From positions 310,001 through 374,000 of the forward strand of contig NZ_AGQV01000001.1 of NCBI RefSeq assembly GCF_000234355.1: a stretch of 64,000 bases of DNA, given 5' to 3'. Each line of letters begins with the position of its first letter. The stretch's first letter is position 1. Both the position numbers and the translations under genes were made by a program. This document shows positions 36,641 to 43,676 of this stretch, piece after piece. This stretch comes from Gluconobacter morbifer G707 (lineage in GTDB: Bacteria > Pseudomonadota > Alphaproteobacteria > Acetobacterales > Acetobacteraceae). The notes under the pieces were generated by a model. The model was not told the origin of the DNA. It saw only the letters and a program-made list of their open reading frames with translations, and did not search any database.

Positions 36641-38542
36641 TTAGCCGTGCTGCTGCACGATCAGCGCGGATGCCGTTTCGTCGTCCATCCGATAAGGGCC
36701 ACCTGCGCGGATCTGTATGCTGAGCATACCGATAGCGTCCGGACGGCGAGGTGGCAGCGGAAGGCGACCATATCCATCCGTCCAGCGGCAGGTGCCGTCT
36801 TCCACGTTGTTCCAGCCGCGCAGGGTTTCGTCCGTCAAATAACGTTTGAGGGTATGGGTCACGTCCGCATCGAAAAAGCGGATAGCGCCTACCAGAACGC
36901 CCAGGTGGCGGCGATCATCCACAAATGGCCCGATCGTGTCGCTGGGGCGGCTGGTACGGGAGACGATACTGACTTCCGTGACGCCGGGCGGGATCATGAA
37001 GATTGCAGCCCCTCCGGCCTCACGGATTTTGCGAATGACATATCCATTTGGCGTGAGCAGGTGCAGGTCCGGGTCATCTGTCAGCTGAACGGATTGCACG
37101 GTCTGGGAAAGTCCCAGCGCGTCTGCACGCTTTTCAAGCTGATTGAAAATCGGCTCCACGAAATCACGGGAAACGACAAGTGAAGCCGCCGCGTCTTCCG
37201 ACCAGCTTCTGACGGGACCGCCCAACTGCGCAACAGTGCCATGCTGATGAAAGGTGTGACGGTTGCCTGTCGCCAGATAGGATTCCGTCAGGGCACCATT
37301 GGCGGAAATGATGGAATGGTCCCGGGTTTCCACGTGATAATAGTCGTAGTCTGGAAAGCCGCGGTCATAGAAAATGCTGCGACCGTTCACCAGCATCCGG
37401 ACCGGCACGAAGCTGTCGTTCAGGAACAGGCAGTGTTCCGGCGTGATCAGCAGATCCTGGGCCGGGATGCCGTCACCGAGCGCATTGCGGACAACGCGGA
37501 CCGGATAGCCGGCCTGATCCAGCGGAAGGGACGGGTTGGCCGTCATGTGCTGGGTGCCGATCCAGACAACAGGCTGCGTTACCGGACGACCATGAACGTA
37601 AGTCGTGATCTCATCGCCGATTCGCAGGTCTTCGATGATCTTTTCGCCTTTGGGCGTAAGGATCTTCGTACCAGCCAGGAAGCAGAGTTGCCGGTTATAG
37701 CCTGTCGCACCGTTCACGACGCTCCAGCTGCCATCGGCATTGGTGACGATTGTCGGTGTTCCCACTGCGGAATTGGGACCGAACGCCACATCCGTCAGGG
37801 TGATGCCATTCCCCCACTGGTCGAAGGCGATCTTGAGGCTGTAGGTTCCGTTCCCGTTTGACACAAACGTTGCGCTGATCGGAGCCGCACTTCCCTTGGC
37901 GATTGTGATGACGGACGAAGCGTCAAATCCCGTGATGGGTGTGCTGACGGTCTGGTTATAGTCCGAGAAGACAATCTGGCTCGGCGTGCCTTCGGCGGAA
38001 TCGTCTCCGAAGACGATCTGCTTGCCTGCTGCGCCGTTGGTGGCGTTGTTTATGTAAACCGCGGCGCCATTTTCCAGGACCGTCGTCAGGGAGGATCCCA
38101 TCTGGAACGGTGTGTTCGTGTCACCGAGCGTTGTGCCATCCAGGATCAGCGTTCCGCTGCCCTGGACGCTACGACTGTTGATGGAGATGGCCGGATTGCC
38201 GCTGATGGTCAGTGTGCCATCGACCGTCGGATTGCTTCCCAGTGTAACGGGGCTGGACGTGTCGATGGAAAGCGCGCCACCGCTGTTGATGGTCAGACTG
38301 TTGACGCAGAAAACCGTGTTGCTGCCGTCTGTGACGCTGACAGCCAGTGTGGCACCGGTACCGACCGTCAGAACGTTCAGCTGCGTGCTGCTGGCGCTCT
38401 CATAGGAAACGGTTAGCGTCATTCCCGCGGAATTCCCGACAAAAACGCTGTCCCATGCCCTGTCCTGCGGTGTGAGGCCGTCACTCCAGTTCGCTGCGGA
38501 GAACCAGTTGCCTGATGAGGGATTGAGCCAGGAGTTCGTCAT
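36641..38542 (-). CDS. Surface/secreted protein with C-terminal Hint domain
   Basis: A 633-residue protein with no N-terminal signal peptide. Residues 1-285 are Ser/Thr/Gly/Asn-rich repeats of beta-helix type (WLNPSSGNWFSAANWSDG, LTVGTGATLAVSV, GTLTISGNPAISI), like autotransporter passenger segments. Cys287 begins a Hint_2 domain: CFLAGTKILTPKGEKI is block A, ITPEHCLFLND is the TxxH block B, and YYHVETRDHSII the final block. A terminal His-Asn is missing, so protein splicing is unlikely; N-S acyl shift with cleavage or ligation remains possible. A 200-residue tail with no recognised fold follows. Lacks any IS or phage context. Confidence 0.78.
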   Translation of the reverse strand: MTNSWLNPSSGNWFSAANWSDGLTPQDRAWDSVFVGNSAGMTLTVSYESASSTQLNVLTVGTGATLAVSVTDGSNTVFCVNSLTINSGGALSIDTSSPVTLGSNPTVDGTLTISGNPAISINSRSVQGSGTLILDGTTLGDTNTPFQMGSSLTTVLENGAAVYINNATNGAAGKQIVFGDDSAEGTPSQIVFSDYNQTVSTPITGFDASSVITIAKGSAAPISATFVSNGNGTYSLKIAFDQWGNGITLTDVAFGPNSAVGTPTIVTNADGSWSVVNGATGYNRQLCFLAGTKILTPKGEKIIEDLRIGDEITTYVHGRPVTQPVVWIGTQHMTANPSLPLDQAGYPVRVVRNALGDGIPAQDLLITPEHCLFLNDSFVPVRMLVNGRSIFYDRGFPDYDYYHVETRDHSIISANGALTESYLATGNRHTFHQHGTVAQLGGPVRSWSEDAAASLVVSRDFVEPIFNQLEKRADALGLSQTVQSVQLTDDPDLHLLTPNGYVIRKIREAGGAAIFMIPPGVTEVSIVSRTSRPSDTIGPFVDDRRHLGVLVGAIRFFDADVTHTLKRYLTDETLRGWNNVEDGTCRWTDGYGRLPLPPRRPDAIGMLSIQIRAGGPYRMDDETASALIVQQHG

Positions 38543-41297: not shown

Positions 41298-43454
41298 TCA
41301 GTTGGCGGGGAGGTATGAATCCTTTTCTTCTCCGCCGGCGCTGTCGAGCGGGACGGTCATGACGGCTTCCAGTCCGGGGGAGAGGGGCGTGTAGGTCAGG
41401 GTTCCGGTCAGGCTGCTGACTACAGCTTTCATCATCCGTGTTCCAAAGCCATTGCCCTGCATATCCTGAAGCGCATTGACGCCCTGGTCGGACACGGTCA
41501 GGACCAGACGTTCGCCACTCTGGGCTAGGGAAATATGCAGAGGTCCGGCTTCGCCGTCATAGGCGTATTTGCTGGCGTTGATGACAAGTTCCGTCAGGAT
41601 CAGGCCGATATTGATGGCGCGATCAGCAGAAATCATGACCGGGACCAGGGCGAGATAGAGCTGGCTCTGCCATTCGCCACCCAGCGATGTGCAGAGTTCC
41701 TCCACCAGTTCTTCCAGATAGCGGCTGAGATCCACGATGCCGAAATGCTCATCCCGGTAAAGGCGGCGATGCACCAGACCAATGGCCGCCACACGGTGCT
41801 GGGCTTCCGTCAGCGCGATGGTGGTTTCCTCGTTGGTGGAGGTCCGTGCCTGAAGTTTGAGAAAGGATGCGACCATCTGGAGCGAATTCTGGACGCGGTG
41901 ATTGACTTCCCGCAGCAGGAAATCCTTCTGCTGCAGAAGGTTTTCCCGCTCCTCCAGCGTGGAAGCCAGCGTAACGTTCAGATCCCGGAGCTGCTGTGTC
42001 TGGTAGTCGGTGATCAGGATCCGTCTCAGGCGATGGGCGGACTGCTTCTGCTCTCCCGTCCAGCGGCGGCTCTGTCCGTGAACGGTCTCACGCCAGGTCT
42101 GGAAGGATGTGCGAGGGTGCAGCAGCCCATTCTCGCTTTCTTCCGGCTTGTGTGGATTGCCGGCCCATTCGATAGTCTGGATCACCTCGACACGGCTCCA
42201 GATCAGGGAGAGCGGGCGGCGCAGCGGCAGCGTGATGCTCAGGATGCCGGCCGCGCGGTTCGGCCAGGCGGCGGCCTCCGGATAATCCTTGGCGAGATGC
42301 GCACTGCAGAAAACGCCCCCATTGCTGCCCAGCCGGAGCCATTCCTGAAGGCGCAGCAGGTCATCGCGGTCCGGAACATGGCCGCTGGTGATGACGTTGC
42401 CATCTCCCACGATGGCAAAGCCGTCACAGGGGAAAAGGTTCTGCAGCTCTCCGCGGCCGAGGCGAAGGTTCTCCTCCAGTGAGTGATGCGTGCCGAAATG
42501 CGACGTGACGAATTCCATCGCGTTCCGCAGCTTCAGGCGCTCCTGGTATGTGACCAGCTCTTCCTTGTTCCGGAGCTGGCGGGACATGATGCCTGCGAGA
42601 GTCCGGCAGGCGGCGCGGATGTCTTCCGCCATCATGCGCGGGGTCGCGTTATGGCAGGCAATCAGGCCCCACAGCACGCCGTCCACCACGATCGAGATGG
42701 AGGCAGAGGCCGCAACGCCCATATTGGCCATGTACTGCAGATGGATGGGCGAAACGCTGCGGATCTGGACGTCGCTCATGTCCAGCCCGCTCAGTCCGGC
42801 CTCCACCGGGCGCAGAGGGGCGGCTTCGTAGCTGATGTCCGGAATGACGCGGATACGGTTTCGCAGATAGAGTGCGCGGGCCTGCCGAGGGATATCACTG
42901 GCGGGAAAGTGATGATGCATGAGCGTGGGAAACGCGTCATTGCGGCTCTCCCCAACCACGCAGCCACTGCCATCGTCCAGGAAACGATAGACCAGGACAC
43001 GGTCAAATCCCGTCAGGTCCCGGAAGACCTGTGCGCCATGGTGGCAGACTGACCGTGTGTCAGGACAGCGCTCGAAACGGTCGGCGGTGGCGTCGATCTG
43101 ACCGAAAATGTCCCATGTCAGGAGCTTGTCTTCCCGCATGGGCTCCAGTTCGAGCAGCAGCAGGCCTTTCTGGTCATGGCGGAGAAGAGAAAAGACTTCT
43201 CCCTGAAGACCATGAATGCGCAGATCCGAAAGGGATTTCGGCTGGGAACGGGACAGGCGTTCTGCGGGAAGATTCAGGAGGTCAGCCAGGTTCTGGCCTA
43301 GCCAGTCAGGGGCTAGCCGCGTTTCTAGATCGCCCGCACCGGCCACGACCTTCAGGGTCGTAGCCTCCGCGACGAGAAACAGGCCGTATGGCTGGATGGC
43401 GTCGGGGCGATGAATGGGTTCACGGTCGCAGGCTGTCAGGAATGCATCAGCCAG
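41298..43454 (-). CDS. Bacteriophytochrome sensor histidine kinase (PAS-GAF-PHY-HisKA_2)
   Basis: A 718-residue red/far-red photoreceptor if started at CTG 43454, where AGGTGGG sits seven bases upstream. This adds 36 residues containing ACDREPIHRPDAIQPYG, the PAS N-terminus with Cys9 at the biliverdin-attachment position; the first ATG/GTG/TTG (GTG 43346) would remove it. GAF: PASDIPRQAR (about 184-193) and SVSPIHLQYMANMGV. PHY tongue: PRTSF (447-451). Kinase: HisKA_2-type LLREVNHRVQNSLQMV with His519, then ELVINASKYAYDG and a degenerate G box FGTRMM. No response regulator or haem oxygenase is adjacent. Confidence 0.88.
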   Translation of the reverse strand: MADAFLTACDREPIHRPDAIQPYGLFLVAEATTLKVVAGAGDLETRLAPDWLGQNLADLLNLPAERLSRSQPKSLSDLRIHGLQGEVFSLLRHDQKGLLLLELEPMREDKLLTWDIFGQIDATADRFERCPDTRSVCHHGAQVFRDLTGFDRVLVYRFLDDGSGCVVGESRNDAFPTLMHHHFPASDIPRQARALYLRNRIRVIPDISYEAAPLRPVEAGLSGLDMSDVQIRSVSPIHLQYMANMGVAASASISIVVDGVLWGLIACHNATPRMMAEDIRAACRTLAGIMSRQLRNKEELVTYQERLKLRNAMEFVTSHFGTHHSLEENLRLGRGELQNLFPCDGFAIVGDGNVITSGHVPDRDDLLRLQEWLRLGSNGGVFCSAHLAKDYPEAAAWPNRAAGILSITLPLRRPLSLIWSRVEVIQTIEWAGNPHKPEESENGLLHPRTSFQTWRETVHGQSRRWTGEQKQSAHRLRRILITDYQTQQLRDLNVTLASTLEERENLLQQKDFLLREVNHRVQNSLQMVASFLKLQARTSTNEETTIALTEAQHRVAAIGLVHRRLYRDEHFGIVDLSRYLEELVEELCTSLGGEWQSQLYLALVPVMISADRAINIGLILTELVINASKYAYDGEAGPLHISLAQSGERLVLTVSDQGVNALQDMQGNGFGTRMMKAVVSSLTGTLTYTPLSPGLEAVMTVPLDSAGGEEKDSYLPAN

Positions 43455-43676
43455 CGGTTTCCCACCTTTGAGGGAGATTGTTTCCGGATGCTGTCAAACC
43501 CAGCGAGACCCCGTTACAGTTCCGGGTGGGACCCGTGGCACCCAGGCCGCGCTCTCAGGGGGAAAGACAGGAAAGGAAGCGGCAGTCATGAAGGCGCCCT
43601 GTTGTTTTGCCGGCCAGTGCCGGCAAATGTGGTAACTTCAACTCTACCGTTCCCCTTTTGCTCTTGTCAATTTATG

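Follow-up and report, generated by a model that had tools for sequence, protein, structure and literature searches.

The phytochrome locus

The window, by which we mean the whole 64,000-nt stretch of DNA analysed, belongs to a 2.89 Mb genome of 19 contigs. On its minus strand, a phytochrome reading frame is open from a TGA at 43496-43494 down to 41298, and just after this TGA it reads QHPETISLKGGKPLADAFLTACDREPIHRPDAIQPYG. Its Pfam matches, all above the cut-offs, comprise the photosensory core of PAS_2 (43140-43430, 41.0 bits), GAF (42591-43055, 44.7 bits) and PHY (42006-42500, 139.1 bits), a HisKA_2/HWE-type dimerization and phosphoacceptor region (41685-41909; HisKA_2 80.9 bits, HWE_HK 27.2 bits) and a kinase domain matched by HATPase_c (41346-41612, 28.3 bits) and by HATPase_c_2 (33.8 bits). 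The chromophore-associated motifs that the first-pass annotation had read as intact, PASDIP and SPIHLQYMANMGV in the GAF domain and PRTSF in the PHY domain, are indeed all present in this frame. The DIP motif, the GAF histidine (SPIHLQYM) and the PRxSF motif of the PHY tongue align with the solved chain 4r70_A, as does the Cys of CDREPIH (codon 43428-43430), the biliverdin attachment residue of bacteriophytochromes.

By sequence, 107 distinct solved chains matched at E ≤ 0.001; among the best 60 of these 107, bacteriophytochromes are the closest, led by 4r70_A (E = 1.1e-91). Like the protein encoded here, 4r70_A, 6bap_A, 5hsq_A and other solved bacteriophytochromes combine a PAS-GAF-PHY core with an N-terminal Cys, a DIP motif and a GAF histidine, whereas the tongue motif of 4r70_A is RASF in place of PRTSF. 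Judged by its sequence, the gene is thus an ordinary bacteriophytochrome histidine kinase, a member of a known family and orthologous to the phytochromes of other Gluconobacter. In such proteins the N-terminal Cys is expected to attach biliverdin, and red and far-red light to regulate autophosphorylation; from this knowledge of the family, the protein in the window would be a light sensor too. A functional red-light sensor in this strain, which the first-pass annotation had thought probable, can nevertheless only be presumed, given the disrupted N-terminal frame and a genome with no match to three heme oxygenase families. In the literature searched, a single paper, on phycocyanobilin production, mentions both Gluconobacter and phytochrome, and two mention both Acetobacteraceae and bacteriophytochrome, one of them (PMC4646962) using the latter word in its reference list alone.

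What sets the gene apart is its start. The phytochrome frame contains no ATG, GTG or TTG between the TGA and the Cys codon (43430-43428), a difference from the solved bacteriophytochromes, which were compared at the level of protein sequence only. The first standard start in frame is the GTG at 43344-43346, downstream of the Cys, and would yield a product of 682 residues. The Cys is encoded in frame, but its presence in the protein made by this strain would depend on which start codon is used. The first-pass annotation had reported both points, which our reading of the frame bears out, and had gone on to propose a non-canonical start at a CTG (43452-43454), which encodes Leu and precedes the Cys by eight codons, giving a phytochrome frame of 41298-43454. 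Two of its distances needed amending: the TGA begins 42 bases upstream of the CTG, not 54, and 6 rather than seven bases separate the CTG from the Shine-Dalgarno-like AGGTGGG (43461-43467).

Two further features of the minus strand were noted. An ATG at 43589 opens a 31-codon frame (43496-43589) that is in the phytochrome frame and ends at a TGA overlapping the conserved TTG described below. Elsewhere in the window, 36641-38542 encodes a 633-residue protein with a Hint_2 domain (PF13403, 122.8 bits) preceded by a repetitive-looking N-terminal region.

Chromophore supply

Heme oxygenase is the usual partner of bacteriophytochromes, without being a strict defining feature of them. None of the three heme oxygenase families searched for (PF01126, PF10615 and PF14518) is matched in this genome. 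Across the 26 genomes of the genus, PF01126 occurs in 7, PF14518 in 2 (both among the 7) and PF10615 in none. In a sample of 299 Acetobacteraceae genomes, a PHY domain is found in 134, PF01126 in 88 and both in 80; the two are strongly associated (odds ratio 29), with 54 of the 134 genomes with PHY having no PF01126 and 8 of the 88 with PF01126 having no PHY. By these domain matches, many acetic acid bacteria appear to keep a phytochrome without a recognized (PF01126) heme oxygenase.

Orthologues across the genus

Each of the 26 genomes of the genus contains at least a partial match to the phytochrome, and in 25 of them this was the phytochrome itself, whole or broken. The exception, G023, has only a 38-residue phytochrome remnant (residues 25-62, 53% identical) in addition to matches to kinase domains. 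The orthologues at loci L002-L022 (L001 is the gene in the window) are 59-74% identical to it over most of the protein and are alike in domain order, in CDREPIHRP and in an upstream TTGAC; the one at L022 matches in pieces that are 65 and 73% identical. The orthologues at L023 and L024 are 53% identical and have a GTG in place of the TTG-ACN, 99 bases from the IQ of the IQPYG motif.

Two orthologous genes are broken. In G022 a change of frame near codon 153 divides the phytochrome (loci L022 and L027), and in G021 (L025) the frame is broken in a GGGGGG run directly past PIHRPG, with the next standard start after the break lying 197 codons beyond the IQ. Together with the remnant in G023, these breaks point either to recurrent loss of the gene within the genus or to faulty assemblies.

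The first-pass annotation had named an alignment with orthologues as a way to check whether similarity extends upstream of the GTG. It does: the orthologues carry the same CDREPIHRPDAIQPYG as the gene in the window. From the Cys to the GTG, comparison with nine relatives gave differences at codon positions 1/2/3 ranging from 2/2/14 to 6/2/20 per 28 codons, the latter being the count against L012. This concentration at third positions indicates that the long form is what selection has maintained, and upholds the view that the Cys segment is part of the protein and that a form beginning at the GTG would be truncated.

A conserved TTG, the probable start in the family

The sequences upstream of the Cys were aligned for 22 loci (L001-L022); the set excludes L023, L024 and L025, which are too divergent, and L027, which belongs to the same gene as L022. 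The pentamer TTGAC is invariant in these loci, and thus in 22 of the 25 genomes of the genus with the gene, and no other five-base run upstream of the Cys is shared by all 22. Its distance to the IQ varies between 96 and 100 bases: 17 loci have 99 and three have 96, this genome has 100, and L008 (genome G001) has 98. The TTG therefore shares the frame of the Cys in all of these loci but two, L001 and L008, which leaves 20 of the 22 in frame. All four bases occur directly after TTGAC, as would be expected of an unconstrained third codon position but not of a −35 promoter box. This variability of the sixth base, and a distance to the Cys divisible by three in 20 of the 22 loci, led us to reject a promoter element.

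Codon-position differences point the same way. In the largest group, of 13 genomes, pairwise differences at positions 1/2/3 are.454/.522/.421 over the 22 codons upstream of the TTG,.151/.153/.328 from the TTG to the Cys and.102/.072/.469 from the Cys onward. Two groups of three genomes agree for the stretch from the TTG to the Cys (.133/.033/.267 and.317/.19/.429) and are less clean upstream of the TTG (.121/.121/.061 in group B and.455/.515/.652 in group C); L001, L008 and L021 belong to no group. A codon pattern that is absent upstream of the TTG but present downstream of it, in the largest group, argues that the family starts at TTG-ACN. It also speaks against read-through of the TGA at 43496 from the ATG at 43589, bearing in mind that the 13-genome group does not include this genome.

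Most of the TTGs are preceded by an AGG-rich stretch. Among the 21 other TTG loci, the Shine-Dalgarno-like duplex energy is −3.8 in L021 and between −5.7 and −9.4 in the remaining 20; in this genome it is −6.2, from the weak stretch ACGGGG (43509-43514). From these alignments we infer that translation in the family starts at a TTG followed by a Thr codon (ACN), 21-22 codons before the Cys. Because additional start codons occur in frame before the TTG in several relatives (an ATG in L012, L013 and L017, for instance), the role of the TTG as the sole start is deduced from its conservation.

Frame displacement in this genome

In this genome the TTG is retained at 43497-43495 but is displaced by one base from the frame of the Cys. 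Read from there, the frame is 16 codons long (43447-43497) and stops at a TGA (43449-43447) five bases downstream of the first base of the CTG. In the phytochrome frame, the resemblance to L012 can be followed back to about 43478 (ISLKGGKP against ISLQSGQP), upstream of the CTG, which places the displacement between 43497 and about 43478 (43478-43497, where the distance from TTG to IQ is 100 bases against 96 or 99 in relatives). A difference of one base in length after the TTG takes the start out of frame with the phytochrome, and ribosomes starting at 43497 would stop after 16 codons. If the displacement is real, there would be little or no full-length chromoprotein, save by weak rescue at the CTG. 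Our preferred reading, held with fair confidence, is that the locus encodes an otherwise normal bacteriophytochrome histidine kinase, and that a recent frameshift or an error of assembly lies next to the TTG start of its family.

A second genome, G001, shows an independent frame change just past the TTG (L008). An in-frame ATG three codons before the Cys, which could serve as a start, is found in L008 and also in L002, L003, L004, L007 and L010. The four frame breaks, in this genome, G001, G021 and G022, map approximately to codons 5, 4, 31 and 153, respectively, of some 735 codons, a clustering towards the 5′ end with P of about 2e-4 by the sum-of-uniforms formula, calculated post hoc on positions set by hand. 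The suggestion of clustering is a weak one, comprising four events that may be assembly errors, with no nearby rescuing start for the break in G021.

Alternative starts

The proposal that the CTG is the start of the gene finds little support in the comparison with relatives. Coding similarity runs upstream past the CTG, its position reads CTT, CTC, TTC or TTT in 6 of the 22 genomes (L011, L012, L013, L014, L021 and L022), and the relatives share the TTG-ACN about 14 codons further upstream. Likewise, the claim that the CTG is the only good candidate holds in so far as the frame has no standard start before the Cys, but it overlooked the conserved TTG, which is one base out of frame. The need for the CTG arises solely from the frame displacement seen in this one assembly; the codon could serve as a local rescue at best and is not where the family normally starts. 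That it might nevertheless be the present working start of a truly displaced gene, reached through AGGTGGG and perhaps by termination-reinitiation after the 16-codon TTG frame, we judge unlikely. The only genome that needs such a start does have the strongest energy of the 22 loci at that codon (−8.8, against 0 to −6.1 at the homologous codon in the other 21), the 6-base spacing is good, the stop of the TTG frame overlaps the CTG site in a way that would allow reinitiation, and the rest of the gene shows neither disruption nor accelerated evolution. Equally strong energies are, however, common within the gene, at 49 of the 699 in-frame codons and 7 of the 57 CTG codons of its body, and the protein similarity continues through the CTG. 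In E. coli complexes, moreover, one study describes CUG initiation complexes as less stable than those on AUG, GUG or UUG (PMC11497404). A fuller version, in which a real frameshift was offset by an evolved CTG start, so that a 16-codon TTG leader is followed by a lineage-specific restart at AGGTGGG and the cell would make a full-length, possibly dampened phytochrome after losing its own biliverdin synthesis, seems more doubtful still.

Little more can be said for translation from the GTG at 43346, which would produce a Cys-less, light-blind kinase and which we hold to be improbable. It is the first standard start in frame, has an energy of −9.3 upstream and would accord with a genome in which the three heme oxygenase families have no match. 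Its best pairing, however, lies about 11-22 bases upstream, at the far end of the scanned stretch and thus at poor spacing; the resulting protein would lack the beginning of PAS_2; and the codons it would leave out are conserved in relatives with the third-position pattern of a translated, constrained segment. Shine-Dalgarno strength alone proved indecisive for choosing between the TTG and the CTG, with values of −6.2 for the TTG, −8.8 for the CTG and −9.3 for the GTG against a background of 300 random positions of the locus with a mean of −3.8, a tenth percentile of −7.4 and a fifth percentile of −9.3. Programmed +1 frameshifting from the TTG frame into the phytochrome frame would be in line with the change of frame right after the TTG in a second genome (L008), but the two displacements go in opposite directions (100 against 98 bases), 20 of the 22 loci need no shift, inspection of the stretch by eye revealed no recognized slippery sequence, and G001 has its in-frame ATG three codons before the Cys. 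We regard this mechanism as highly improbable.

Mutation or assembly error

Whether the displacement lies in the genome or in its assembly can be weighed from several sides. An assembly or sequencing error, with the strain using the TTG as its relatives do, is a serious contender that we place short of the probable. The species is represented by one searchable genome, so that the spacing is known from the assembly alone; the body of the phytochrome is intact and evolves at a normal rate; and assemblies of the genus do show frame changes, with four in 400 kb of G013 called by the genes of both other genomes, some of them possibly real. Against an error, the stretch from the TTG to the CTG contains no run of more than three identical bases and is not a typical site of indel errors, and 400 kb of this genome yielded only one frame change called by both relatives. 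In that stretch, 13 frame changes were called with the genes of G013 (223 comparable genes) and 4 with those of G007 (202 comparable genes), the one site in common lying near 117.6 kb; the same two-caller rule gave four in 400 kb of G013 and none in 400 kb of G007. This test cannot detect changes within roughly the first 20 codons of a gene, and the phytochrome was not flagged.

We also compared the phytochrome branch in this genome with those of 98 genes in three genomes. Its branch fraction of.324 ranks 54th of the 98 (mean.312), and hence there is no accelerated protein evolution of the phytochrome on this branch relative to the two other genomes. The lack of acceleration implies that the break is either recent or not real. 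On balance we lean towards a recent, real mutation.

Discussion

The apparent CTG start is best read as a footprint of the frame displacement, and the claim about the start codon is corrected accordingly. Phytochromes without a recognizable heme oxygenase raise the question of where their biliverdin comes from, or of whether they need it. More broadly, a TTG start shared across the genus means that gene callers preferring ATG or GTG may truncate this photoreceptor.
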